Assembly: GCF_009755275.1 (NCBI RefSeq)
Contig: NZ_WQLA01000008.1
Span: forward strand, 1 to 64,000
Length of the DNA: 64,000 bases
Source: Mucilaginibacter aquatilis
Lineage (GTDB): Bacteria; Bacteroidota; Bacteroidia; Sphingobacteriales; Sphingobacteriaceae
Reading direction: 5' to 3'
A program made the translations under genes and the position numbers. Positions 8,759 through 29,164 of the stretch are shown one piece after another. Position 1 is the first letter of the stretch; each line of letters opens with the position of its first letter. The notes below the pieces were generated by a model. The model did not search any database and was not told where the DNA came from. It saw only the letters and a list, made by a program, of their open reading frames with translations.

Positions 8759-8830
8759 TGCTGCAAATTTATAAATTATATTAAAGATGTGCTTTTAAAT
8801 AATTGCAGTTTAATCTTGTAGCGAGTATCA

Positions 8831-8866
8831 AACAAAAACGGCCACAAAGATTGCTCTTTGTGACCG
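8831..8866 (-). terminator. Intrinsic terminator after the TonB receptor
   Basis: Inverted repeat at 8839-8866 with a 12-pair stem (one mismatch) around a TTGC loop; on the minus strand it is followed by TTTTTG. It lies just past the TonB receptor stop codon and separates that gene from the metal-efflux operon. Confidence 0.8.
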
Positions 8867-8900
8867 CTCAGGAGTTTAATTATAGTTTAGCAGGTAAGTT

Positions 8901-11519
8901 TTATAAGGCGTAGCGCAAGGTTACGCCAAAGGTTCTTTGATCGCCAAGCACAGCAGCGTACTGGCCCGCATTGCCGCCGGCTGGCAGCAGCTGCTCAAAG
9001 TAGTTTTTGTTAAGCAGGTTGCGGCTCCATATATAGGCCGAAATGCCTTTGATGGCTCTGAACCCGGCCCGCGCATTTAGTATACTATACCCACCTATGT
9101 TTAAGTAAGCGGAAGGCGAAGGACTTGAAGAGAACTTTGACCGAAAGAAACCATCGGCAGCAATGAAGAAACGGGTGTCTTTGTTAATGTATTTGGCCAC
9201 AGTACTAAACTCGCCACCTAATGAGCCGGCCCATTTTGAGATACCTGGCAACCTGCCGCCTGAAATATCTTTAAAGGCAACTTGTTGTCCGTTCACTGTG
9301 AGTCCGGTTTCTTCTAACGGAAGCGGCGCATTGGTAAACTTTACATACTTGGCATCAGTATAAGCAGCAGCTCCGTAAACTGAAAAGTTTTGGCTTGCTC
9401 TGAAGTTACCGTCAAACTCCAAGCCCTTAACGTTTACTTTATCAGCATTAGCTATGTAACCACGGTTTACGCCAAGCTCGGGTGATTGCACATTGGTTTG
9501 GTAGTTTTTAATATCAGAGTTATGATAATTAAGATTTAAAATAAGGTTGTTAAGTGGTGTGGTTTTAACGCCTACTTCGTAGTGCTTTGTATTTTCGGGT
9601 TTAATAACGGCCAAGCTCAAATCGGCAGTAGTACCACCTACAACACTTGGCAAACCGGCAACGTTAACGCCTACTGGCTTAAAGCTGGTTGAATAAGTGG
9701 CAAAGGCGTTAATGCGTTTACCTGGTTTATAGGCAGCGGTAACCGAATAAGTAAAGTTTTTTTCATCGGCACTGGCATCATATTGCTGACTACTGTAAAC
9801 CAGATTTTTGATTTTTTGCAATTCAGATTTTACTGCTGCGCTGTAATTGCTGTTTCCAATATCTAGACCGCCGCGGGCAGCGCGATTATAGTACACGTCT
9901 TTATTATCATAATTTATACGTGCACCCGGCAAAATATGAAAGCCTTTGAATACCTCCAGGTCAATGCTGGCAAATGCTGCCGCACTTTGTGATTTTATTG
10001 AGGCATCGGTATAAATACCATACCCTTCTAACAAACCGGGCGTGGCCCATAATTGATCATTTGTAGTGCCGGGCGTGTTAGCATTGTTGCCGGTGGTGCT
10101 TTTGGCAAAACGCGCCTGCGCCGACCCGGACTCTTCAGTACCTGTAATATCAACTTTTTGGTCGATGTAGAATAAACCAATAACACCACTCAACTTTTCG
10201 GTTAACTGGCCGGCATAACGTACCTCCTGTGACCAGCTTTTATGCTTTGCCGGGTTTTGCGATTTAGCCAGCACGGGCAAGCCTGTAAAATCGCGATCAT
10301 TTGATGGATCCCAGTTCCAATAGCGCCATGCAGTTGTTGATGTTAGCGTACCGGGCCCTATTTTAAAGTCAGCATTTAAAGAAGCACCTCCTAATTGGTT
10401 ACCTGATCTCCATGGTGTGTCATGATCAATAACACGGTCAAAAGCATTAAGACTTGGCAACTTGTAATTTAAGTCGGCAATGATGTTGTTGAACTGCCGG
10501 TAAGCGGCACGTTTGGTGGTTACAACCCCTGCAACAACCTGTGCATAACCATCAGGTTTTTGATCAGTTATATCGCCGGCAAGTGTAAGTGCTATATCGT
10601 CGGTTGGTTTGTATAGCAACTGTGTACGGCCGCCAAGGTTATTTATATCATTTGTTGCTCTACCGGTACGTATATTATCAACCAGGCCGTTACGCTGGGT
10701 ACCTGAGAATGACAAACGACCGGCAATTTTTTTACTTAACGGACCAGACACGGATGCCTTTGCCTGTATGTAGCCATAATTACCATAACTGGTTTCAAAA
10801 GTAGCTTCGGGCGTAAAACTGGCTTTGCGGGTAGTTATATTGATAGCGCCTGCGCTGGTGTTTTTACCAAACAAAGTTCCCTGCGGACCGCGTAAAACTT
10901 CAATACGGTCAATATCTAAAAAGTCGAGCGTGGCTGCAGCCGGACGCGCATAGTAAACACCATCAACGTAGAAGCCAACGCCGGGGTCAAGACCATCATT
11001 GGTTAACCCAAACGGCGACCCAATACCACGTATGTTAATACCTGTATTACGCGGATTTGAAGAGTATAACTGTACTGAGGGGATGATTTCCTTAACCCGG
11101 TTTACGTTAAACGCCCCGGCCTGGTCAATTTGTGAACCACCCACAACCGAAATAGGTATAGGCACATCCTGCACCACCTCTACCCTCCTGCGCGACGTTA
11201 CCACAATCTGGTCAAGCAAAGCATTTTCTACTAGTACCAGGTCTATCGGCGCTTCCTGAAGTTGAAGTATTTGAAAATCCTGTGGTTTGAAACCCACGGC
11301 GCTTATTTGCAAGTAAAACGGGGGTTGTTGTTTAGTTTCAATAGTAAAAGCACCGTTATCATCAGCACTTACCGCTGTTTTGGTACCGCGTATAGCAACG
11401 GTTGCACGTGCAATGGCGCTACCGTCGGTTCGTTTTACAATACCCGTAATTTTGCTTTGAGCAAACGCAAAGCTTGCCGTAAGCAAAAAGAAGGTAAATG
11501 TGAGTAATTCCTTTTTCAT
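8901..11519 (-). CDS. TonB-dependent outer-membrane receptor
   Basis: Outer-membrane active transporter energised by TonB. The order is signal peptide (MKKELLTFTFFLLTASFAFAQ), a CarboxypepD_reg-like beta domain at about residues 22-100, a plug domain (VVTSRRRVEVVQDVPIPISV and later RGPQGTLFGKNTSAG), and a C-terminal 22-strand barrel ending TFGVTLRYAL. There is no SusD partner, so it belongs to the siderophore/vitamin-type receptors rather than the glycan SusC type. The start at 11519 is chosen because the signal peptide begins there; the longer frame adds 20 residues unlike a signal. Transcription probably begins about 250 bases upstream. The ligand is not deducible. Confidence 0.88.
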   Translation of the reverse strand: MKKELLTFTFFLLTASFAFAQSKITGIVKRTDGSAIARATVAIRGTKTAVSADDNGAFTIETKQQPPFYLQISAVGFKPQDFQILQLQEAPIDLVLVENALLDQIVVTSRRRVEVVQDVPIPISVVGGSQIDQAGAFNVNRVKEIIPSVQLYSSNPRNTGINIRGIGSPFGLTNDGLDPGVGFYVDGVYYARPAAATLDFLDIDRIEVLRGPQGTLFGKNTSAGAINITTRKASFTPEATFETSYGNYGYIQAKASVSGPLSKKIAGRLSFSGTQRNGLVDNIRTGRATNDINNLGGRTQLLYKPTDDIALTLAGDITDQKPDGYAQVVAGVVTTKRAAYRQFNNIIADLNYKLPSLNAFDRVIDHDTPWRSGNQLGGASLNADFKIGPGTLTSTTAWRYWNWDPSNDRDFTGLPVLAKSQNPAKHKSWSQEVRYAGQLTEKLSGVIGLFYIDQKVDITGTEESGSAQARFAKSTTGNNANTPGTTNDQLWATPGLLEGYGIYTDASIKSQSAAAFASIDLEVFKGFHILPGARINYDNKDVYYNRAARGGLDIGNSNYSAAVKSELQKIKNLVYSSQQYDASADEKNFTYSVTAAYKPGKRINAFATYSTSFKPVGVNVAGLPSVVGGTTADLSLAVIKPENTKHYEVGVKTTPLNNLILNLNYHNSDIKNYQTNVQSPELGVNRGYIANADKVNVKGLEFDGNFRASQNFSVYGAAAYTDAKYVKFTNAPLPLEETGLTVNGQQVAFKDISGGRLPGISKWAGSLGGEFSTVAKYINKDTRFFIAADGFFRSKFSSSPSPSAYLNIGGYSILNARAGFRAIKGISAYIWSRNLLNKNYFEQLLPAGGNAGQYAAVLGDQRTFGVTLRYAL

Positions 11520-11809: not shown

Positions 11810-11869
11810 ATAGTTTTTAATATTTGTTGCTCATCCATTTATGTATTTGACGCAAATCACCTACTTGAG

Positions 11870-11881
11870 TGACGATGGTCA
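11870..11881. promoter_or_regulatory. FNR/CRP-type palindrome upstream of the 597-aa gene
   Basis: TGACGATGGTCA is a perfect TGAC-N4-GTCA palindrome, the half-site spacing used by the FNR/DNR branch of CRP regulators. Its exact reverse complement recurs at 16309-16320 in front of the histidine kinase operon. A second palindrome, TTGAGC-N9-GCTCAA, lies at 11916-11936. Binding by the REC-CRP protein at 14003 is inference. Confidence 0.5.
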
Positions 11882-11980: not shown

Positions 11981-13774
11981 ATGAGTCATACTTTTCATAT
12001 CCCCGTATTGGGCTTAGCATTTTCGGTTGACACTCCGCTTAAAGTTGCACGCTATGGCATATCATCAACAGTTTCAATAGTTGATGATGAACTTTTAGAA
12101 CGCATGCGTAAATATCACTGTGAGCAAAATGCGCTACCTTTTACACCTATTAACAAAACCGAACCTGAAAGCAGAACCAAACGCGTAACTGCCTATTTAA
12201 ATCTGCTGCATAAACTGGTAAATCAACAATTTGACGAGTTGCGCAAGTTGCCTTTTAATCATTGTTCTGATATTGATCGCTACTTTGAACTGTTACCACC
12301 GGGATCAGAATTAAAACATGGCTATGAGTTAATGTCCGAGTATCCGGAATGTGATAGCAAGCGCATTTTTCAGTCATTATTACGTTCACGTATCCATATG
12401 GGGGCTATTGACGTAAATATTATGTCGAAAGTTGATAAAATGAATTACACTGCAGAAGGCAACCCTGCCGGCGAAGAAAATTCAGATGCGCTGGCAGCAT
12501 TAAAGGGCTTTGCCCAAAGCAACCTCCAGTCATCAATTATTTTATCAGCCGGTATGAATCCGCGCTTATACAGTTACCTTGAAAACTTTGCAGACTTTTA
12601 TCCCGACGAAAACGGACAGCTCCGCAAAAAAATAATTTTGAAGGTTAGCGATTATCGTTCGGCATTAATACAGGCCAAGTTTTTAGCTAAAAAAGGATTG
12701 TGGGTATCAGAGTTCAGGATAGAATCGGGCCTGAATTGCGGCGGACATGCCTTTGCTACTGATGGCCTGCTGCTTGGACCTATATTGGAGGAGTTTAAAC
12801 AAAAAAGGCTGCAAATGGCTAATGAGCTTACACAAATGTACCAGGCAGCTTTAGCAACAAAAGGTATAACAACTCATAAGCCTAAATTAAAAGTAAGTGT
12901 GCAGGGAGGTATTGGAACGGCTTATGAAAATACGTTTTTAATGAAGCATTATCAGCTATGTGCAACAGGCTGGGGAAGTCCGTTTTTGCTGGTACCAGAG
13001 GTAACCAACGTTGACCCCGACACCTTACAAAGTTTGGCCAATGCCGGTAAAGATGACTTTTACATCAGTAACTCTTCACCCCTTGGTGTATTGTTTAATA
13101 ATTTTAAGGGCAGCACAATGGAGCAGCAGCGCCTGCAACGCATTGAAAAAGGTGTACCAGGAAGCCCTTGCGTTAAAAAGTTTTTAGTAAGTAATAGCGA
13201 GTTTACCCAAGAGCCAATTTGTACGGCATCACGCCAATACCAAATGCTTAAAATAGCGCAATTACAAGAGCTTAACCTACCACAAAAGGATTACCAGCAA
13301 CAAGTGGAAGCAGTAACCGAAAAGATATGCTTATGCGAAGGCCTATGCACATCGGCCTACATAAAAAACGATATGCTTAAGCCGCGCGAAAGCAAAGCTG
13401 TAGCTGTTTGCCCCGGTCCTAACCTGGCTTACTTTAAAAATGTTTATACTTTGGGTGATATGGTTAAACATATATACGGACAGGTAAACCTTTTGCAAAA
13501 TGTGGAACGGCCTAACCTGTTTGTTAACGAGCTTAATTTATATATTGATTACCTGCGAAAAGAGATAAGCAGCCATTTACAAAACTGGAATGGAAAGCGG
13601 GAAAATTACTTGCTTAAATTTAAAAACCAGTTACAGGATGGTATAAACTACTATAAACAATTGCTGCCCGAGCTTACCGGACAAACGCAGGAATATCTGA
13701 ATAAAATGTATAAGGAGCTGCTGATTTCCGAAGCGCACCTTGAAGCATTAGATTTAGGGCTAATGGCTATTTAG
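11981..13774 (+). CDS. Conserved protein of unknown function, TIM-barrel-like, Cys-rich C-terminal region
   Basis: A 597-residue cytoplasmic protein without signal or membrane segments. The middle (about 215-330) has alternating strand/helix units and glycine motifs (GLNCGGHAFATDG, VSVQGGIGTAYEN) that resemble FMN- or phosphate-binding TIM barrels such as nitronate monooxygenases, but the match is loose. Further on are CVKKF, a CTASRQYQ motif, a C-x-C-x3-C cluster (ICLCEGLC) and AVCPGPN, which could bind a metal or iron-sulfur centre. The last 100 residues are helical. It stands alone behind an FNR-type palindrome that is repeated at the oxygen-sensor operon, and ends in a strong terminator. 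Enzyme activity is not assigned. Confidence 0.75.
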   Translation: MSHTFHIPVLGLAFSVDTPLKVARYGISSTVSIVDDELLERMRKYHCEQNALPFTPINKTEPESRTKRVTAYLNLLHKLVNQQFDELRKLPFNHCSDIDRYFELLPPGSELKHGYELMSEYPECDSKRIFQSLLRSRIHMGAIDVNIMSKVDKMNYTAEGNPAGEENSDALAALKGFAQSNLQSSIILSAGMNPRLYSYLENFADFYPDENGQLRKKIILKVSDYRSALIQAKFLAKKGLWVSEFRIESGLNCGGHAFATDGLLLGPILEEFKQKRLQMANELTQMYQAALATKGITTHKPKLKVSVQGGIGTAYENTFLMKHYQLCATGWGSPFLLVPEVTNVDPDTLQSLANAGKDDFYISNSSPLGVLFNNFKGSTMEQQRLQRIEKGVPGSPCVKKFLVSNSEFTQEPICTASRQYQMLKIAQLQELNLPQKDYQQQVEAVTEKICLCEGLCTSAYIKNDMLKPRESKAVAVCPGPNLAYFKNVYTLGDMVKHIYGQVNLLQNVERPNLFVNELNLYIDYLRKEISSHLQNWNGKRENYLLKFKNQLQDGINYYKQLLPELTGQTQEYLNKMYKELLISEAHLEALDLGLMAI

Positions 13775-14002: not shown

Positions 14003-15052
14003 TCAGTTTTTCATTTTTTGCAATCGCTCAATAGCTAATATTTGAATTACGCTACCTTTCTTTTCAATAATCCCTTCCTCTTTAAAATCGGTAAGGGTAC
14101 GGCTAACGGTTTCGCTGGCTATACCGGCCATTGATGCCAGTTCTTCTCTGGAAGCTGATATTTGCTCTTGTGCACCTGCGTATTTGCTTAGTCTTAATAA
14201 AACATTAGCCATTCGTTTCCTCACAGACAAATAAGCCAACTCAATCAACTGATCTTCTTTTTCCCTGATGTTGTTGGCCAATATCTTAAAAAACTGCCTG
14301 CCTAAATCAGGATATTTATAAAGCAGCTCGGTAACCATATCTTTTGGCAACAGGCACACTGCCGAATCATCTAATGCTTCAGCGGTCTCGGCATGGTCAG
14401 CTTCCAACAACAGCGCATGCAGACCCAGGTAATCATCCGCCTGGTAAATGCCGGTAATTAATTCCCTGCCATCTGGTGCCATTTTAGTGGTTTTTATGTT
14501 GCCTTCAATAACCAGGTAAAGCCCCTGAGGCTGATCGCCGTCATAAAACAGTATCTGCTTCTTTTTAATCTGACGTATCTTTCGTCCAGCAATCATGCTT
14601 TTAAGTTCCCTTATTCCCTTACCATTGCCTTCGGCCAAACGCTCAAGGTTTTCCAGTGAGCGGCTGTAATAAATTTCCAGTTTTTGCTTTTTTTGCAAAC
14701 GGCTTTCAATTGCGTTCAGCAACTCTACATCGTCAAATGGTTTGGTTAAATAATCATCAGCGCCAAGTTCCATACCTTTACGGTGATCAACGCGCTCAGC
14801 CTTTGCGGTTAAAAAAATAAATGGAATGGCTTGTGTATGCATGTTTTTGCTTAAACGCAACAATACGCCATAACCATCCAGTTCGGGCATCATAATATCG
14901 CACAAAATTAAATCAGGCTGATGCGCAGTAGCCAGTTCTACGCCGGTTTTACCATTATCAGCCTCGATTACCTTATAGCCCGATAAGCCCAGTATCTCGG
15001 CAGTACCTTCGCGTATATCTGCGTTGTCTTCAATAATTAAAATGGTTTTCAT
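14003..15052 (-). CDS. Response regulator: receiver domain fused to CRP/FNR-family DNA-binding protein
   Basis: A 349-residue hybrid. Residues 1-120 form a receiver domain with phospho-acceptor D52 (DLILCDIMMPELDG) and conserved K104 (LTKPFDD). Residues about 150-275 form a cyclic-nucleotide-binding-like beta-roll (GDQPQGLYLVIEGNIKTT), and about 285-349 a winged helix of the CRP type (SREELASMAGIASETVSRTL). No N-terminal cysteine cluster for an FNR iron-sulfur centre is present. The ATG overlaps the stop of the upstream kinase gene by four bases (ATGA), so they are partners. It would combine the jobs of FixJ and FixK. Autoregulation through the palindrome at 16309 is inferred. Confidence 0.9.
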   Translation of the reverse strand: MKTILIIEDNADIREGTAEILGLSGYKVIEADNGKTGVELATAHQPDLILCDIMMPELDGYGVLLRLSKNMHTQAIPFIFLTAKAERVDHRKGMELGADDYLTKPFDDVELLNAIESRLQKKQKLEIYYSRSLENLERLAEGNGKGIRELKSMIAGRKIRQIKKKQILFYDGDQPQGLYLVIEGNIKTTKMAPDGRELITGIYQADDYLGLHALLLEADHAETAEALDDSAVCLLPKDMVTELLYKYPDLGRQFFKILANNIREKEDQLIELAYLSVRKRMANVLLRLSKYAGAQEQISASREELASMAGIASETVSRTLTDFKEEGIIEKKGSVIQILAIERLQKMKN

Positions 15053-16239
15053 GATGATAAAGGAAATGTTAAAACGAACGAAGTACCCTGGTTTACGGCA
15101 CTTTTAAAATGAATTTGCCCATCCATTAAAGCCACGTGCCGGGTTACAATGTTAAGACCAAGGCCCGTACCCGGGATGTTGCCGGTATTATGCGCTCTAA
15201 AAAAAGCCTCAAAAAGATGTTTCTGATCTTCAGGCGGAATACCAATGCCATTGTCTTTAACGGTGATGGTAAACTCACTCGCAGAAAGCTCAGTATTGAA
15301 TTCAATAAATGTGTTTTCGCCCGAGTATTTGATGGCATTGCCAATCAGGTTTACAACGCAGTTTTTAAGCAACGAGCGATCAAGTGTTACGGTATTACCG
15401 GTGCCGGTGTGCTGGTATATTATATTTTGATCTTGCTTGGCAACCAGCTGCATTTCTTCGGTAATTTCTTCTCCAAACTTTAAAACATCAAAAGTTGAGC
15501 TAACAGCATGTGTTTTACCGGCTTCCAGTTTTTCAAGCGAAAGGAAATCGTTGAGTATGGAAGTAAGATTGTTTACCCCCGCCTTAATTTTAGTAACATG
15601 CTTTTTGATGTTGCTACTTTCGGCTTGTTGAGCATATTTTTCAATAAGCACGGCCGATAGCTGGATTGCGCTCAAAGGTGTTCTGAACTCATGTGATGCC
15701 ATAGATACAAAACGGCTTTTGAGTTGATTAAGTTCTTTTTCCTTTTCAAGCGATACACTTACCTCCTCTTTTGCAAACTCCAGGGCCTGCACTGTTTCTT
15801 TTAAAGAGCTGGTGCGTTCCTCTACCAGTTCTTCCAACCGGGCGGCATGTTCTTTTAAGCGGTCTTCTGCTTCTTTAGCACGGCTCAGATCATGTATAAA
15901 GCCTGTATAAATTTTCCGGCCTGAAACTGCTACTTCACTCACTGCCAACCTGAAGGGGAACACAGAACCATCTTTACGTAATCCTGTTACCTCGCGGCCG
16001 ATGCCAATAATATGTGCATGGCCGGTATGCTGGTACCGCTCAATATATGTATCATGTCTTGCCTTATCGGGCTGTGGCATCAGCATAGATATGTTGTGAC
16101 CTATAACCTCATCAGGCACGTACCCAAAAAGCTTACATGCCGATGGGTTTATTGATTCAACTACTCCCCGTTGGCTGATAGTAATTATACCATCAATGGC
16201 ATTTTCTATAATAGCATTCAGCAAAGCGGCATTATCCAT
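15049..16239 (-). CDS. FixL-type haem-PAS oxygen-sensing histidine kinase
   Basis: Soluble histidine kinase with one PAS domain (about 5-120), a coiled-coil linker, HisKA with phospho-acceptor H183 (SHEFRTPL) and an HATPase domain (NLIGNAIKYS, DNGIGIP, GTGLGLNIV). The PAS domain carries the FixL signature: RHDTYIERYQ followed by HIIGIGREVTG. The spacing from this His (H62) to the Arg (R82) is 20 residues, as between the proximal His200 and distal Arg220 of Bradyrhizobium FixL, so haem and oxygen binding are strongly suggested. There are no membrane segments. The start at 16239 is preferred since the extra 19 residues of the longer frame lie before the usual PAS start and overlap a promoter-like TATTTTTA. 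Confidence 0.88.
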   Translation of the reverse strand: MDNAALLNAIIENAIDGIITISQRGVVESINPSACKLFGYVPDEVIGHNISMLMPQPDKARHDTYIERYQHTGHAHIIGIGREVTGLRKDGSVFPFRLAVSEVAVSGRKIYTGFIHDLSRAKEAEDRLKEHAARLEELVEERTSSLKETVQALEFAKEEVSVSLEKEKELNQLKSRFVSMASHEFRTPLSAIQLSAVLIEKYAQQAESSNIKKHVTKIKAGVNNLTSILNDFLSLEKLEAGKTHAVSSTFDVLKFGEEITEEMQLVAKQDQNIIYQHTGTGNTVTLDRSLLKNCVVNLIGNAIKYSGENTFIEFNTELSASEFTITVKDNGIGIPPEDQKHLFEAFFRAHNTGNIPGTGLGLNIVTRHVALMDGQIHFKSAVNQGTSFVLTFPLSS

Positions 16240-16308
16240 AGACTTATTTATTGGGTAAAAATAGTGATTAAGTTCTTTCAAAATTACAACCATCATCAGC
16301 CTAAAATG

Positions 16309-16320
16309 TGACCATCGTCA
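16309..16320. promoter_or_regulatory. FNR/CRP-type palindrome upstream of the sensor kinase operon
   Basis: TGACCATCGTCA, a perfect TGAC-N4-GTCA palindrome identical (as reverse complement) to that at 11870-11881. It lies about 70 bases upstream of the chosen kinase start and about 60 bases upstream of a TATTTTTA -7-like element, a normal activator or autoregulator position. It also sits between the kinase and the divergent CHC2 gene. Confidence 0.5.
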
Positions 16321-17325: not shown

Positions 17326-18060
17326 ATGGCCCAGATTAATAAAAATGTTATTGAACAGTTGAAAAAAGATATTTTGCTTAAGCAAGGCTACAAACCGGCA
17401 TCGGCAGATACTTTAAAAATAAATGGTTTACAACAAGTTGAAGCCAACTTTCCAAACGGTGTGTTTCCAACTGGAATGATACATGAATTTATTAGCAACC
17501 GTGATGAACATGCGTCGGCCTGCCGGGGTTTTATTAGCGGCTTACTAAACTCGTTAACCGGTAATAAGGGCATGTGCATTTGGGTAAGCATGCAACGCAC
17601 CATATATGCACCGGCATTAAAAGAATTTGGCATTGAACCTGACCAGCTCATATTCATAGATGTTGCTAAGGAAAAAGATTTATTATGGGTAACCGAGGAG
17701 GCTCTTAAATGTGAAGGGTTTGCTGCCGTAATAACAGAAATCAAAGAACTTAGCTTTAGCCAATCCTTACGTTTACAACTGGCTGTAGAACAAAGTAAAG
17801 TTACCGGCCTTGTGCTACGTACCGATGATACCAAAATAAATCCAACCGCCACGGTTGCCCGTTGGCAAATCACCCCCCTGCCCAGCCATTTACAAGGCGG
17901 GCTACCCGGCGTAGGCTTTCCACGCTGGAAAGTTGAACTTTTGAAAGTACGCAACGGCCAGCCAGGTGCCTGGGAGTTTGAATGGCATGGCGGCAAGTTT
18001 TTACCGGTTTATGAAACCGAAGGTAGCAATATAAATACTTCGGTAAAAAAGGCAGGTTAA
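17326..18060 (+). CDS. imuA: ImuA, RecA-like mutasome accessory protein
   Basis: A 244-residue member of the ImuA family, the RecA-fold protein that works with ImuB and DnaE2 in damage-induced mutagenesis. The fold pattern is visible (FPTGMIHEFISN, GMCIWVSMQRTIYAPAL, QLIFIDVAKEKDLLWVTEEAL), but there is no P-loop GxxxxGKT, so ATP hydrolysis is not expected. The C-terminus (PRWKVELLKVRNGQPGAWEF) is typical of the Bacteroidota form. It lies four bases upstream of imuB. Function follows from the family and gene order. Confidence 0.88.
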   Translation: MAQINKNVIEQLKKDILLKQGYKPASADTLKINGLQQVEANFPNGVFPTGMIHEFISNRDEHASACRGFISGLLNSLTGNKGMCIWVSMQRTIYAPALKEFGIEPDQLIFIDVAKEKDLLWVTEEALKCEGFAAVITEIKELSFSQSLRLQLAVEQSKVTGLVLRTDDTKINPTATVARWQITPLPSHLQGGLPGVGFPRWKVELLKVRNGQPGAWEFEWHGGKFLPVYETEGSNINTSVKKAG

Positions 18061-18064
18061 TGAC

Positions 18065-19564
18065 ATGCAGCAACGTTTTATGGCTTTGTGGTTTTGTTAT
18101 TTAAAAACCGATTGGATAGCCATTCGCAAACCCGAACTTATAGATATACCTTTTGTGTTTTCTCAGCCAGATCATAACTGCGTTATGGTTACTGCAGCAA
18201 ATAATATTGCACAGCAAGGCGGTGTAATACCTGGAATGCGCCTGGCCGATGCAAAAGCCATTCTACCATCACTAGAAGTACTGCAGGATAAGCCCGCACG
18301 CGAAGAAAAGCTACTGAAAGCCATTGCCGAATGGTGCATACGCTATACGCCGGTTGTTGCACTTAACCTTCCTGACGGCCTTTTGCTAAACATTACCGGT
18401 TGCACGCATTTATGGGGCAGCGAAGCCGGGTATGTAACTGATATAATCAACAGGTTTAATAATAAAGGTTACGTTGTAAAAGCTGCCATTGCTGATACTA
18501 TTGGCGCCGCCTGGGCACTATCAAGGTACACTGAAAACTATTGTATTGTTGAACCGAAACAGCAAAGGGCTGCTTTATGCAACCTGCCGCCGGCTGCTTT
18601 ACGCTTAGATGCTATAACTATTGAAAAACTTGATAAGCTTGGCTTTTTAAACATTGAGTCTGTACTAAAAATTCCGCTTAAAGAGTTGCGCCGGCGCTTT
18701 GGTGGTGATTTAATTTTAAGAATACTACAGGCACTTGGCGAGGTGGAAGAGTACCTTAAACTAATTAAAGAACCTGATCCATACGAGGAGCGCCTGCATA
18801 CACCTGAACTTTATAAAACACGCACCGGTATTGATATTGCCGTACAAGAGTTATTAAAAAAAATTTGCGAACGTTTAATTGCAGAGGGCAATGGCGTTCG
18901 TGCTGCAATATTAAGCACTTACCGCACCGATGGTAAAATTCAACATTTAAAGATTGGCACCAACAAGGCTACGCATGATGTAGCACATTTATTTAAATTG
19001 TTTGAGCTTCATTTAAACGAGATAAAGCCGGGGATGGGTATTGAATTGTTTGTTTTGCAAATACCTAAAATTGACAAGGTTGATATCAAACAGCAAGCCA
19101 TTTGGAAGGGCAAAATAAATATTGACGATAATGGAATTATTGAACTGCTAGACAAAGTTGCCGGCAAAATAGGTATGCAGTCTATTTACAGATATTTACC
19201 CCAGGAAAACTACTGGCCGGAGCGAGCAATTAAAAACAGCCAAAACATAAAAGATATAAAGCAAACACCCTGGCGTACTGATTTAAAGCGTCCGGTAAAT
19301 CTTTTTAAACGCCCGCAGCCTATACAGGTTTCGGCACCGATACCCGACTATGCTCCTATGCTCTTCAGGTATAAAGGCGAGGTGCACCATGTTAAACGTT
19401 CTGACGGCCCCGAACGTATTGAGCGTGAATGGTGGCTTGATGAAGGCGAACACAGGGATTACTACATTGTAGAAGATCAAAACGGATATCGTTACTGGAT
19501 ATTCCGTTCGGGGCATTATGATAAAGCAACCCCTGAATGGTATTTGCACGGCCATTTTGCATAA
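18065..19564 (+). CDS. imuB: ImuB, catalytically inactive Y-family polymerase-like protein
   Basis: A 499-residue Y-family protein that in other bacteria links the beta clamp, ImuA and DnaE2 for translesion synthesis. Finger/palm homology is seen at the N-terminus (MALWFCYLKTD, then VTAANNIAQQGGVIPGMRLADAKAI), but the catalytic Asp-Glu pair is missing: the corresponding place reads LLLNITGC (N109), and the first acidic motif is also absent. A helix-hairpin-helix region follows (IESVLKIPLKELRRRFG). It therefore should not polymerise DNA itself. The gene is followed nine bases later by dnaE2. Confidence 0.9.
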   Translation: MQQRFMALWFCYLKTDWIAIRKPELIDIPFVFSQPDHNCVMVTAANNIAQQGGVIPGMRLADAKAILPSLEVLQDKPAREEKLLKAIAEWCIRYTPVVALNLPDGLLLNITGCTHLWGSEAGYVTDIINRFNNKGYVVKAAIADTIGAAWALSRYTENYCIVEPKQQRAALCNLPPAALRLDAITIEKLDKLGFLNIESVLKIPLKELRRRFGGDLILRILQALGEVEEYLKLIKEPDPYEERLHTPELYKTRTGIDIAVQELLKKICERLIAEGNGVRAAILSTYRTDGKIQHLKIGTNKATHDVAHLFKLFELHLNEIKPGMGIELFVLQIPKIDKVDIKQQAIWKGKINIDDNGIIELLDKVAGKIGMQSIYRYLPQENYWPERAIKNSQNIKDIKQTPWRTDLKRPVNLFKRPQPIQVSAPIPDYAPMLFRYKGEVHHVKRSDGPERIEREWWLDEGEHRDYYIVEDQNGYRYWIFRSGHYDKATPEWYLHGHFA

Positions 19565-19573
19565 ATCAAAACT

Positions 19574-22500
19574 ATGCGTTACGTTGAACTACAGGTTACT
19601 ACTAACTTCAGTTTTTTAAGGGGAGCATCACACCCTGAAGAATTGGTTAAATATGCAGCTCAATTAGGCTATAAGCGTATTGCCATTACAGATCATAACT
19701 CATTTGCAGGCCTGGTAAGAGCGCATGCTGAAGCAAAAAAACACAATATCAGTATTATACCTGCATGCAGGCTTGATTTGCTTGATGGGCCCAGCCTATT
19801 GGCATACCCAACTAATAAACAAGCTTACAGCCAATTATCAACCTTGCTTACGCTGGGCAACCAGCGGGCCGAAAAAGGCAAGTGTTATTTGTATAAAAAG
19901 GATGTTTACGCAGCAGCTAGTGATCTTATCCTAGTCATCATTCCCCCCGAAAGCCTGAATGAGTTTTTTGAATTTGACAGCCAATTCATTGCTGATGTGA
20001 TTGATTATAAGGAAAACATAAGCAACCTGTACGTAGCTGCCAGCAGAACCTATCAAAACAATGATCATAAAAGATTATTTCGCATTCATGAGTTAGGGCT
20101 TAAAAACAACATTAAGGTTGTTGCTACCAATAATGTGCACTATCATGAACAAAGCAGGCGCGAGCTGCAAGATGTGCTTACCTGCGTACGCGAAAAATGT
20201 ACTATACATAATGCCGGTTTCAAATTGCACGTAAACGCCGAAAGGTATTTAAAACCCATTAATGAGATTGAAAGGCTATTTCGATCCTATCCCGATGCTT
20301 TAGCGCATACTGTTGAAATATCTAATGCCTGTACTTTTTCACTTGATGAACTAAAATACGTTTATCCTGAAGAAATATATCAGAGCAGCCGCACACCAAT
20401 GGAAGAACTTAAACATTTGGTTAATGAAGGTATAAAAGAGATGTTTAATAATGAGCCAACTGAAAAGCTTATAAACACCATTAACCATGAGCTTGGCTTT
20501 ATAGAGCGAATGGATTATGCCAACTACTTTTTATTTGTGCATGATATTGTAAGAGAAGCCAGACAGCGCGGTATATTATGCCAGGGACGCGGTTCAGCAG
20601 CTAATTCGGCTGTTTGTTATTGCCTGGGCATTACCTCCGTTGACCCTACAAAGTTTAATTTACTTTTTGAACGCTTTATTTCTTCTGCCCGGAATGAACC
20701 TCCTGATATTGATGTGGATTTTGAGCACGAACGCCGGGAAGAGATTATTCAGTACATCTATGATAAATACGGGCGCGACCGGGCAGCTATTGTTGCTACG
20801 GTAACACAACAACGTCAAAAAGGCGCCATACGTGATGTTGGCAAGGTAATGGGCCTTTCGCAGGATGTGATTGACCGCCTTGCAGCAGGCATTTGGGACT
20901 ATAGCAGTGACTGGTTTGATGCCAGGCAGCTAGAAGAACAAGGCCTTAACCCTGAGGATAAGCTTCTGGTAAAAGTGTTGAGCTTAACATCCCAAATGAT
21001 TGGCTTCCCACGTCAGTTAGGGCAACATACGGGTGGTTTTGTTGTAACTCAGGGCAAACTTACCAACCTATGCCCTATCATCAATGCCCGTATGGAAGAC
21101 CGTACCAATATTGAATGGAATAAAGATGATATTGACACTTTAGGCTTTTTAAAGGTTGACGTTTTAGCATTAGGTATGTTAACCTGCATACGTAAAGCGT
21201 TTGACTTGGTTAAACAACATTACGGCATTGAGCTAACACTTGCCAATATACCCCAGGACGATGATGTTGTTTACCAGATGATAAGCCTTGCTGATACCAT
21301 TGGTGTGTTTCAAATTGAAAGTCGTGCACAGCAATCAATGTTGCCACGGCTGCGTCCTGAGTGCTTTTATGATTTGGTTATAGAAGTAGCCATAGTACGG
21401 CCCGGCCCTATACAGGGTGATATGGTGCATCCTTATTTAAAACGTCGGAATAAACAGGAAGAAGTAACTTATCCATCGAAAGAGCTTGAGGAAATTTTGA
21501 AACGCACTTTAGGTGTTCCGTTGTTTCAGGAGCAGGCTATGAAAATTGCTATGGTTGCTGCAGGCTTTACCCCTGCCGAAGCCGATGAATTACGTAGAAG
21601 CATGGCTACATTTAAAGTAAAAGGCCAGGTAAATGCATTTCAAAAAAAATTAACCGAAGGCATGATGGAACGCGGGTATACCCGCGAGTTTGCATCGCGC
21701 ATATTTAAACAATTGGAAGGTTTTGGCAGCTACGGTTTTCCTGAAAGTCATGCTGCTAGTTTTGCATTATTGGTGTATGTTTCATCGTGGCTTAAATGCT
21801 ATTATCCTGATGTTTTTGCGGCAGCTATTTTAAACAGTCAGCCCATGGGGTTTTATCAACCATCACAACTTATTACTGATGCGAAAAACCATCATGTTGA
21901 GGTAAGACCTATTGATGTAAACTACTCAGAATGGGACAATATTTTAGAAGAACGTATCAAATATTACAACCCGTTAAGGTTAGGTTTCAGAAATGCCAAA
22001 GGCTTACGTGAAGACGATGCTTTGTTAATTGTGGCTGGCCGCACTAAACCTTACAAGCACATTATAGAACTTTTGAACACAGGTATAACACCCGATGCAC
22101 TGGAACGCTTAGCCGATGCGGATGCCTTCCGCTCAATGGGTTTAGATCGCCGCCAGGCTCTTTGGGAAATTTCGGCCTTGGCAGATGCCCCAAAAGGAAT
22201 ATTTAAAAATCAGGTTGTTAAAAACCCAGACTCTAAACAGATGCAATTACCCTTAATGAGCTTGGCCGAACATGTAATTCACGATTATAGTTCTACATCG
22301 CTGTCATTAAAAGCACACCCGGTAAGCCTTACACGCCCTAAACTAAAACAGCTGGGCATAGTAAGCAGTGAAGAAACAGCTCACATTGCTGTAGGAACAA
22401 AAATTAAGGTTGCCGGTTTAGTAACCATACGTCAGCGCCCCGGCACTGCACATGGCATATGTTTTATCACTATAGAGGATGAAACCGGCGTATTAAACCT

Positions 22501-22768
22501 TGTAGCCTTTGAAAAAATTTTTGAAACATACCGCAAAGAAATACTCACCGCAAGACTACTTATGGCCCAAGGCTGGATACAACGCGAAGGCATAGTACAG
22601 CACATTGTCATTAAAAGCTTTCATGATTTAACTCCAATATTAAACGGTGTTGTAAATGAATCCAAACAATCAGCGTTTGAACAAAGAGCTTCAAACACGG
22701 CAGAAAATACTTCATCAAAAGAGAACCTTGCTAAAAGCGCCATACCCAAAGCACGAAATTTCAGGTAG
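19574..22768 (+). CDS. dnaE2: Error-prone DNA polymerase III alpha subunit (DnaE2/ImuC)
   Basis: The 1064-residue catalytic polymerase of the mutasome. It has an N-terminal PHP domain (VTTNFSFLRGAS, ITDHNSFAGLVRAH), a palm with catalytic aspartates in PPDIDVDFEHERR near residue 380, the fingers (PRQLGQHTGGFVVT, VRPGPIQGDMVHPYLKRR), tandem helix-hairpin-helix motifs, and a C-terminal OB fold (IKVAGLVTIRQRPGTAHG). The length and the end shortly after the OB domain identify DnaE2 rather than the replicative DnaE1. It completes the operon with imuA and imuB, and translesion synthesis after DNA damage is the expected role. Confidence 0.95.
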   Translation: MRYVELQVTTNFSFLRGASHPEELVKYAAQLGYKRIAITDHNSFAGLVRAHAEAKKHNISIIPACRLDLLDGPSLLAYPTNKQAYSQLSTLLTLGNQRAEKGKCYLYKKDVYAAASDLILVIIPPESLNEFFEFDSQFIADVIDYKENISNLYVAASRTYQNNDHKRLFRIHELGLKNNIKVVATNNVHYHEQSRRELQDVLTCVREKCTIHNAGFKLHVNAERYLKPINEIERLFRSYPDALAHTVEISNACTFSLDELKYVYPEEIYQSSRTPMEELKHLVNEGIKEMFNNEPTEKLINTINHELGFIERMDYANYFLFVHDIVREARQRGILCQGRGSAANSAVCYCLGITSVDPTKFNLLFERFISSARNEPPDIDVDFEHERREEIIQYIYDKYGRDRAAIVATVTQQRQKGAIRDVGKVMGLSQDVIDRLAAGIWDYSSDWFDARQLEEQGLNPEDKLLVKVLSLTSQMIGFPRQLGQHTGGFVVTQGKLTNLCPIINARMEDRTNIEWNKDDIDTLGFLKVDVLALGMLTCIRKAFDLVKQHYGIELTLANIPQDDDVVYQMISLADTIGVFQIESRAQQSMLPRLRPECFYDLVIEVAIVRPGPIQGDMVHPYLKRRNKQEEVTYPSKELEEILKRTLGVPLFQEQAMKIAMVAAGFTPAEADELRRSMATFKVKGQVNAFQKKLTEGMMERGYTREFASRIFKQLEGFGSYGFPESHAASFALLVYVSSWLKCYYPDVFAAAILNSQPMGFYQPSQLITDAKNHHVEVRPIDVNYSEWDNILEERIKYYNPLRLGFRNAKGLREDDALLIVAGRTKPYKHIIELLNTGITPDALERLADADAFRSMGLDRRQALWEISALADAPKGIFKNQVVKNPDSKQMQLPLMSLAEHVIHDYSSTSLSLKAHPVSLTRPKLKQLGIVSSEETAHIAVGTKIKVAGLVTIRQRPGTAHGICFITIEDETGVLNLVAFEKIFETYRKEILTARLLMAQGWIQREGIVQHIVIKSFHDLTPILNGVVNESKQSAFEQRASNTAENTSSKENLAKSAIPKARNFR

Positions 22769-28771: not shown

Positions 28772-29164
28772 ATGGGTAGTAAGCGGGAGATTTTAAACTT
28801 GCAAGACATTAAAGTTCTTGTTGACGGGTTTTATAACCGCGTACGCAATGATGAGTTGCTTGGGCCGGTGTTTAATGCGCGGGTAGAAAACCGCTGGCCG
28901 GAGCATCTTGAAAAGATGTATAAGTTTTGGCAAACGCTGTTGCTGGATGAACATACGTACAATGGCAGACCGTTTCCGCCACATGCCACATTGCCGGTTG
29001 AACACCAGCACTTTGAACGATGGAAAGCTATATTCAATGCAACTATTGATGAACACTTTACCGGCAACAAAGCCGACGAAGCGAAACAACGTGCGCAAAA
29101 CATTGCCAAAATGTTTGAAATAAAGGTTGCCCACTTTCAGGGCAATAGCGGTGCTATTATGTAA
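28772..29164 (+). CDS. Group III truncated haemoglobin
   Basis: A 130-residue truncated globin. It has the group III pattern: DGFYNRVRNDELLGPVF at the start, W42 and H45 in RWPEHLEKMYKFW, the GRPFPPHATLPVEHQHFERW segment with the haem-proximal His (cluster at residues 71-80), and the following helix WKAIFNATIDEHFTG. The likely role is binding oxygen or handling peroxide or nitric oxide. The start codon is only five bases past a TAGCTTTG -7 element (28760-28767), so the message is near-leaderless; no good -33 box is seen. Its end overlaps the convergent DUF808 gene by eight bases. Confidence 0.88.
   Translation: MGSKREILNLQDIKVLVDGFYNRVRNDELLGPVFNARVENRWPEHLEKMYKFWQTLLLDEHTYNGRPFPPHATLPVEHQHFERWKAIFNATIDEHFTGNKADEAKQRAQNIAKMFEIKVAHFQGNSGAIM

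Follow-up and report, generated by a model that had tools for sequence, protein, structure and literature searches.

Two overlapping genes on the minus strand of a 64,000-nucleotide stretch of Mucilaginibacter aquatilis DNA (the window; GCF_009755275.1, contig NZ_WQLA01000008.1, positions 1 to 64,000) encode a sensor histidine kinase and a response regulator that joins a receiver to a CRP/FNR-type DNA-binding protein (REC-CRP), where an earlier note made from the sequence had placed them (Table 1). We propose, with a probability of about 0.7, that the pair forms a two-protein oxygen-response circuit spanning the whole chain from O2 sensing through phosphotransfer to FNR-type activation of a regulon. 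The PAS domain of the kinase would bind haem b through His81, and, as in FixL, kinase activity would be inhibited by O2 held by Arg101. At lower O2, autophosphorylation on His202 would be followed by transfer of the phosphate to Asp52 of REC-CRP, a step suggested by the intact catalytic residues and the operon structure. Receiver phosphorylation, replacing the iron–sulfur (Fe-S) cluster of FNR or the cyclic AMP of CRP, would set the FNR-type half into an active dimer. This dimer would read AAAxTGAYNNNNRTCAxTTT at candidate sites before ccoI, ccoN (the cbb3 oxidase operon), ldh-hemN and the pair's own operon, and the core TGAY-N4-RTCA at a candidate site before a conserved open reading frame (ORF) of 597 codons, ORF597. 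High-affinity respiration, O2-independent haem synthesis and fermentation would thereby be switched on.

The proposed sensor function starts from the PAS domain. The motifs RHDTYIERY and HIIGIGREVTG and the His-to-Arg spacing of 20 residues, which the earlier note had likened to FixL, were confirmed, and a gap-free alignment with Bradyrhizobium FixL (BjFixL; 53 of 124 residues identical) placed His81 and Arg101 on His200, the haem-pocket histidine, and Arg220. Most pocket residues are retained (His200, Tyr203, Arg206, Tyr207, His214, Ile215, Ile216, Gly217, Ile218, Gly219, Arg220 and Leu236 in BjFixL numbering), with substitutions of Ile238 by Val, Met234 by Phe and Asp212 by His. In a published report, O2 signalling and O2 binding by BjFixL are linked to Arg206 and Arg220, and kinase activity of SmFixL to Ile209/Ile210 (PMC10765370). 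The haem His and the Arg are retained in all 23 in-genus (Mucilaginibacter) kinases. Searched against PDB sequences, the PAS domain matched FixL in the top seven rows (E 9.5e-33 to 7.6e-30), which do not count as seven independent relatives, several being variant or engineered forms of a single protein. Six DosP-type haem PAS sequences, one of them labelled yddU, which we take to be DosP, held ranks 8–13 (E 8.4e-18 to 7.9e-16), and the first chain beyond these two groups was eight orders of magnitude weaker (E 7.2e-8). One other PAS match, weak at 33% identity, was found in the M. aquatilis genome, and plasmid-borne proteins from genera of Alphaproteobacteria were 47.8–54.9% identical among the best 60 of 347 records.

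With a proximal haem His, an Arg at +20 and the pocket in a PAS domain that shares its chain with a HisKA and HATPase_c transmitter (Pfam), the kinase is by sequence a member of the FixL-type haem-PAS kinases, and its PAS domain is probably a haem oxygen sensor. The direct path from oxygen to an FNR regulon envisaged in the earlier note gained comparative support for its wiring, as described below, with its haem and O2 part carried by homology and the conserved pocket residues. Translation likely starts at M20 (position 16239, giving ~396 residues), since this methionine is conserved at a level of at least 90% in the alignment of 19 in-genus kinases. The fold search with the kinase model returned full-length kinases, LOV-kinase chimeras and transmitter domains as best rows; native FixL was not among the rows listed, which is no evidence against FixL, as these rows (VIA-align) mostly span residues 179–415 and barely cover the PAS domain. 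Domain arrangement was not used for either protein because the predicted template modelling scores (pTM) were low (0.40 for the kinase and 0.42 for REC-CRP).

Gases other than O2, or redox state, can also be the signal for haem PAS domains, and a FixL-like PAS domain might here respond to nitric oxide, carbon monoxide, haem redox or another cofactor. The differences from BjFixL at the Ile238 and Met234 positions would fit such a signal, as would the PAS domains failing the FixL-type test in 29 of 72 adjacent kinases of related circuits and a Dyadobacter copy (L141) with Gln for the haem His. Against these stand the nearest 13 PDB sequences, all FixL or DosP haem PAS with FixL far ahead, the O2-contacting Arg in 23/23 in-genus kinases and a candidate regulon of low-O2 type, and we consider a non-O2 signal quite unlikely.

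The kinase and REC-CRP ORFs overlap as ATGA (spacing −4), and the regulator carries the receiver and CRP/FNR parts in one chain, both as the earlier note had described. The residues expected of a response regulator, namely the acidic pair (E8, D9), the phospho-accepting aspartate (D52), T82 and K104, were present in 16/16 aligned sequences, and D52 and K104 in all 80 named relatives. The best PDB matches of the receiver were PleD and other receivers, FixJ not being among its 60 best rows, and the REC-CRP structure model matched CRP/FNR structures. An E..SR recognition helix is an FNR trait and the FNR operator is a palindrome of the TGA-N6-TCA type; REC-CRP shares the fold, the helix and, by prediction, the operator. 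It differs from FNR in having a receiver ahead of the effector domain and in that no FNR-type cysteine cluster was found there, the only cysteines in its 349 residues being C51 (receiver) and C233. FixK is a receiver-free CRP/FNR factor, which REC-CRP is not, although candidate sites before cbb3 and accessory genes are common to both. The NarL/LuxR-type helix-turn-helix (HTH) of FixJ is absent from REC-CRP by Pfam, so that the kinase adjoins a partner built of REC, cNMP_binding and HTH_Crp_2 where FixL adjoins a FixJ-type regulator. REC-CRP is therefore a receiver-FNR fusion and neither FixJ nor FixK nor an Fe-S FNR, and descent as a FixJ-FixK fusion was rejected for want of the NarL-type HTH. 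The earlier suggestion that the FixJ and FixK roles are merged held for the wiring: because REC-CRP is encoded with the kinase and candidate sites precede the cbb3, ccoI and ldh-hemN genes, the protein probably takes both roles at once, as judged from sequence.

A candidate autoregulation site lies upstream of the kinase. Its palindrome, which ends at 16320 together with the stretch covered by the earlier note and went unmentioned there, is the reverse complement of the 12-mer at 11870. The form TGAYNNNNRTCA occurred seven times in the window against 2.1 expected, a count reached by 0/100 shuffles: in tandem at 11848 and 11870, before the kinase at 16309, within the REC-CRP gene at 14532 and at three places elsewhere. 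TGA-N6-TCA was found upstream of the kinase in 22/23 in-genus genomes (300 shuffles: mean 2.2, maximum 8), lying at −70 to −112 in 21 of those 22 with the typical form AAAxTGAYNNNNRTCACTTT. The strict form TGACNNNNGTCA preceded the kinase in 7/23 (2,000 shuffles: mean 0.07, maximum 2).

The same palindrome precedes low-oxygen genes. In the M. aquatilis genome the full pattern AAAxTGAYNNNNRTCAxTTT was matched perfectly before ccoI (C3:225238) and with one mismatch before ccoN-O (C3:227860), ldh-hemN (C3:236828) and the kinase; the ccoI, ccoN-O and ldh-hemN sites share one cbb3 neighbourhood. CcoN was searched for in 37 of 41 genomes at first and then in G026, G028, G034 and G040, and 250 bases upstream were scanned, three of 25 ccoN loci (L119, L121 and L122) being dropped as no start was assigned by pattern. 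TGAY-N4-RTCA preceded ccoN in 17/17 in-genus genomes having the gene, at −83 to −99. Including other class genomes the count was 21/22 against 0.4 expected; of the five ccoN genes from outside the genus, four had their site further out (−237 to −250) and one had none. The full pattern gave 24 sites in ten selected in-genus genomes, against two for the reversed control.

A wider scan in named genomes took in the 300 bases ahead of each ORF plus its first 40, leaving out ORFs that were open-ended, scored low or had fewer than 200 scannable bases. Sites were present before CcoNO in 16/19, lactate dehydrogenase (LDH) in 16/16, the kinase in 53/75 (including second kinases of some loci, such as L177, L180 and L188), ORF597 in 9/12, UspA in 10/12 and CcoI in 6/13; one LDH and two kinases had their sites only within the ORF. 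The genes inside operons, CcoG (3/24) and SafE (1/21), are a better control than the shuffles (0.1–1.8 expected), which in this, the kinase and the ccoN scans preserve base composition only. CcoN, CcoO, CcoG and HemN exceeded their NCBIfam cut-offs. The P-type ATPase, which exceeded only the general P-type ATPase cut-off, was named CcoI by position and Pfam domains, and the lactate dehydrogenase exceeded none of the cut-offs among those listed. Together, the sites before cbb3, ccoI, ldh-hemN and the kinase form a candidate FixK-like regulon.

The polarity of the circuit might be reversed, with phosphorylated REC-CRP repressing or the kinase active when O2 is bound. Polarity is unreadable from the sequence; the ccoN sites, −83 to −99 from the start codon, could fit activation. 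Two reports state that O2 inactivates FixL (PMC4999443) and that FixK activates fixNOQP (PMC7888657), and reversal appears very unlikely.

Beyond M. aquatilis, the survey that the earlier note had recommended found full-length REC-CRP in 23/25 in-genus genomes (M. aquatilis included), each with a kinase immediately upstream, in 12/16 other class genomes and, at E up to 1e-60, in 100/197 genomes drawn across the class Bacteroidia. Loci were named for the best-scoring 80 of 580 from GTDB genomes, a choice that favours close relatives and overlaps the in-genus set (three contigs apparently from G016, G017 and G019). A kinase lay within 150 bases of REC-CRP in 72/80; some of the eight loci scored kinase-free reflect contig ends or the 150-base limit, as in L197, where the kinase is 152 bases away. 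Among the 72 adjacent kinases, 36 had a FixL-type PAS domain, 29 another PAS domain and seven no PAS-profile match. FixL-type partner kinases belong largely to Sphingobacteriaceae and part of Flavobacterium, with a small number from metagenome-assembled genomes of other groups (L168, L203 and L214). FixL-type kinases accompany an SR helix in REC-CRP (34/36) and other PAS kinases an IR helix (28/29), a co-variation that may simply follow ancestry. Genes of the cbb3 cluster occurred in 30/80 loci (FixL-type 17/36, other PAS 12/29, kinase-free 1/8, no PAS match 0/7). PAS kinases are common and weak PAS similarity is generally uninformative, which would suit a commonplace two-component pair unconnected with oxygen; given the FixL-specific residues, the cbb3/hemN linkage and the shared palindrome, we find that reading hardly credible. 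Separately, the FixL-like kinase of L141 (Dyadobacter sp. CECT 9623, 8809-10002) has, besides the Gln, Arg206 replaced by His and Gly219 by Asp, retains the Arg220 equivalent and is, by sequence, a naturally occurring version that lacks the haem ligand.

Several observations weigh against the proposed circuit. The kinase scored 175.5 bits against the 850-bit cut-off of NF041777, the NCBIfam equivalog for rhizobial FixL, and its structure model was of middling confidence (pTM 0.40), with a predicted local distance difference test score below 50 in loop 92–99. Strict TGACNNNNGTCA had two copies in the window, matched by 7/100 shuffles, and was rarer in the whole genome than in the control (16 versus 46). 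The full pattern with at most one mismatch showed no excess in the genome (22 versus 23 in the reversed control), and one of its two perfect matches lies inside a gene. HemN carried a site in only 5/29 named genomes. Six in-genus genomes have the pair and no ccoN at E 1e-60 (G014, G015, G016, G018, G022 and G024), two of them less than 75% complete. G005 has neither full-length REC-CRP nor ccoN, yet five full-pattern sites; at the two examined (L092 and L099), no respiration gene was seen alongside. G026 and G028 lack REC-CRP, yet have ccoN with the palindrome before it (found in a scan of 400 bases upstream and 60 of the ORF), so other FNR-type proteins may read the palindrome. In the M. aquatilis genome an ETLSR helix is also present in three or more further CRP-like proteins. 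Two motif uses were abandoned: strict TGACNNNNGTCA as the operator, which was too narrow and lay within an ORF at 11 of the 15 loci examined, and the one-mismatch pattern as a genome-wide regulon finder. Because the latter showed no excess, only sites at conserved places were used as targets.

In one alternative, the main reader of the palindrome before the cbb3 genes would be a different CRP/FNR protein of the cell, for instance a cysteine-bearing FNR, and the pair would serve elsewhere or just tune the response. The genome holds 17 cNMP-binding-domain matches, 15 above the Pfam cut-off, and a receiver start was visible in REC-CRP alone (the ORF taken for match L080 may be a neighbour); beside the ETLSR proteins there is a cysteine-bearing paralogue with an ETVFR helix. 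G026 and G028, two class relatives, keep the palindrome and each encode an FNR-like protein whose N-terminal part carries cysteines; its gene lies one gene from ccoI in G026 (C111, L220 10023-10736) and, in G028, beside a UspA-like gene on a contig other than that of ccoN (C2, L222 1771-2481). These proteins are, by sequence, candidates for ancestral or alternative readers. The paralogue, however, searched for in 29 of 41 genomes, was not found at E 1e-6 in G002, G003, G010, G011 and G023, which all have REC-CRP, ccoN and the site, and was present in G021, where full-length REC-CRP, ccoN and a full-pattern site are all absent. With cbb3 genes at 30/80 pair loci and a site in the pair's own promoter, we regard a different main reader as unlikely. 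Exclusivity of the palindrome to REC-CRP was rejected by G026 and G028, whose palindromes without REC-CRP indicate that the element is older than, or independent of, the regulator. As such relatives keep the ccoN palindrome together with an FNR-like protein bearing cysteines, the fusion probably came about when a receiver took the place of the Fe-S sensor end of FNR, with the DNA code unchanged. A wider claim, for which we see even odds, is that this swap took place across much of Bacteroidia, moving sensing from the FNR Fe-S end to a PAS kinase through the receiver and keeping the palindrome and cbb3 regulon; the FixL-type/E..SR pairs would then be one branch and the rest mostly other PAS/E..IR.

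Compared with known systems, the two-protein circuit resembles FixL-FixJ-FixK of Bradyrhizobium and Sinorhizobium in its kinase, of haem-PAS type by sequence, and in a CRP/FNR-type factor whose candidate targets include the cbb3 (fixNOQP-type) genes and their accessory genes. It differs in phylum and in uniting receiver and CRP/FNR in one chain, with no NarL-type FixJ and no separate FixK. The pair thus appears, on this comparison, to work like FixL-FixJ-FixK, two proteins doing a three-protein job. DosP (EcDos), whose output is a cyclic di-GMP phosphodiesterase, belongs to the haem PAS group second-nearest to the kinase PAS in the PDB, at much lower similarity (E 8.4e-18 versus 9.5e-33 for FixL). 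Variation of the FixL relay is known, with FixJ or FxkR as the middle component; in hFixL-FxkR-FixKf of Rhizobium etli and R. leguminosarum, another such variant, there are still three steps, with a separate FxkR having sites upstream of a separate fixKf (PMC4999443). No description of a FixL/REC-CRP pair in Bacteroidota was found in open-access PMC titles and abstract starts (one search covering the best 15 of 33 papers), a scope outside which most subscription papers fall. New here are the spread of the pair, the palindrome and its targets, the cbb3 linkage and the palindrome accompanied by a cysteine FNR in relatives free of REC-CRP.

Table 1. Positions of the kinase/REC-CRP pair, the palindromes and ORF597 in the window
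Feature	Position	Strand	Basis or remark
Sensor histidine kinase, PAS + HisKA + HATPase_c	15049..16296	minus	ORF of 415 residues; domains by Pfam
FixL-type PAS domain	15889..16221	minus	Pfam; PDB sequence search; BjFixL alignment
His81 codon	16054-16056	minus	Aligned with BjFixL His200
Arg101 codon	15994-15996	minus	Aligned with BjFixL Arg220
HisKA dimerisation/phosphoacceptor domain, SHEFRTP, His202	15517..15720	minus	Pfam; kinase alignment
HATPase_c catalytic domain of kinase	15055..15381	minus	Pfam
REC-CRP/FNR response regulator, 349 residues	14003..15052	minus	Response_reg + cNMP_binding + HTH_Crp_2 (Pfam)
Receiver domain, residues 4-116	14705..15043	minus	Pfam; E8, D9, D52, T82, K104
cNMP_binding (effector) fold	14321..14575	minus	Pfam
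HTH_Crp_2, recognition helix SETVSR	14012..14215	minus	Pfam; alignment
Palindrome TGACCATCGTCA, TGAC-N4-GTCA, upstream of kinase	16309..16320		Candidate autoregulation site
Palindrome TGACGCAAATCA, first of tandem pair before ORF 11981	11848..11859		
Palindrome TGACGATGGTCA, 22 bp past the first, ~100 bp before ORF 11981	11870..11881		
ORF597, 597-residue conserved protein	11981..13774	plus	Candidate member of regulon and cbb3 neighbourhood
ORF597 relatives			L137, L144, L145, L150, L151, L153, L158, L161, L162, L164, L166, L186

Downstream of the tandem palindromes, ORF597 is 57–67% identical across ten aligned relatives, with many invariant residues (CGGHAF, GWGSPFLLVPE, CLCxG), and relatives lie in the pair's neighbourhood at 12/80 loci. 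No convincing Pfam or PDB match was found among the 11 members searched: Apolipoprotein (4e-4, 1/11 members) and DUF2935 (0.09, one member) were weak, and PDB 5v10 (4e-4, 57 residues) was returned with a single-sequence query and absent with a profile query. ORF597 is possibly a low-oxygen protein of unassigned family. In the cbb3 neighbourhood of the M. aquatilis genome (G000), subunits I and II (CcoN-O) are fused in one 709-residue chain (C3:227960-230089), a fusion for which an NCBIfam family exists; 3′ of it lie small CcoQ-like, CcoP, CcoG and CcoH-like genes, CcoQ and CcoH being named by position only. A 73-residue predicted membrane protein starting MATLK (C3:233821-234042) has relatives in L084 and L095, and full-pattern palindromes occur near its relatives in G016 and G013. 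Elsewhere in the window, three plus-strand ORFs near the kinase (17326-22768) resemble by eye a RecA-like protein, a Y-family polymerase and a DnaE2-type polymerase, by look a mutagenesis cassette. A 130-residue ORF (28772-29164, plus strand) resembles by eye a truncated haemoglobin; the window scan found no palindrome before it.

For a widespread phylum, the analysis puts forward a specific low-oxygen circuit that can be tested, along with its candidate operator and targets. It also suggests that a single phosphorylation-controlled regulator can combine the FixL relay with the FNR switch. If this is true, some families would serve one operator with a direct Fe-S sensor and others with a kinase, and the two designs could be compared directly.

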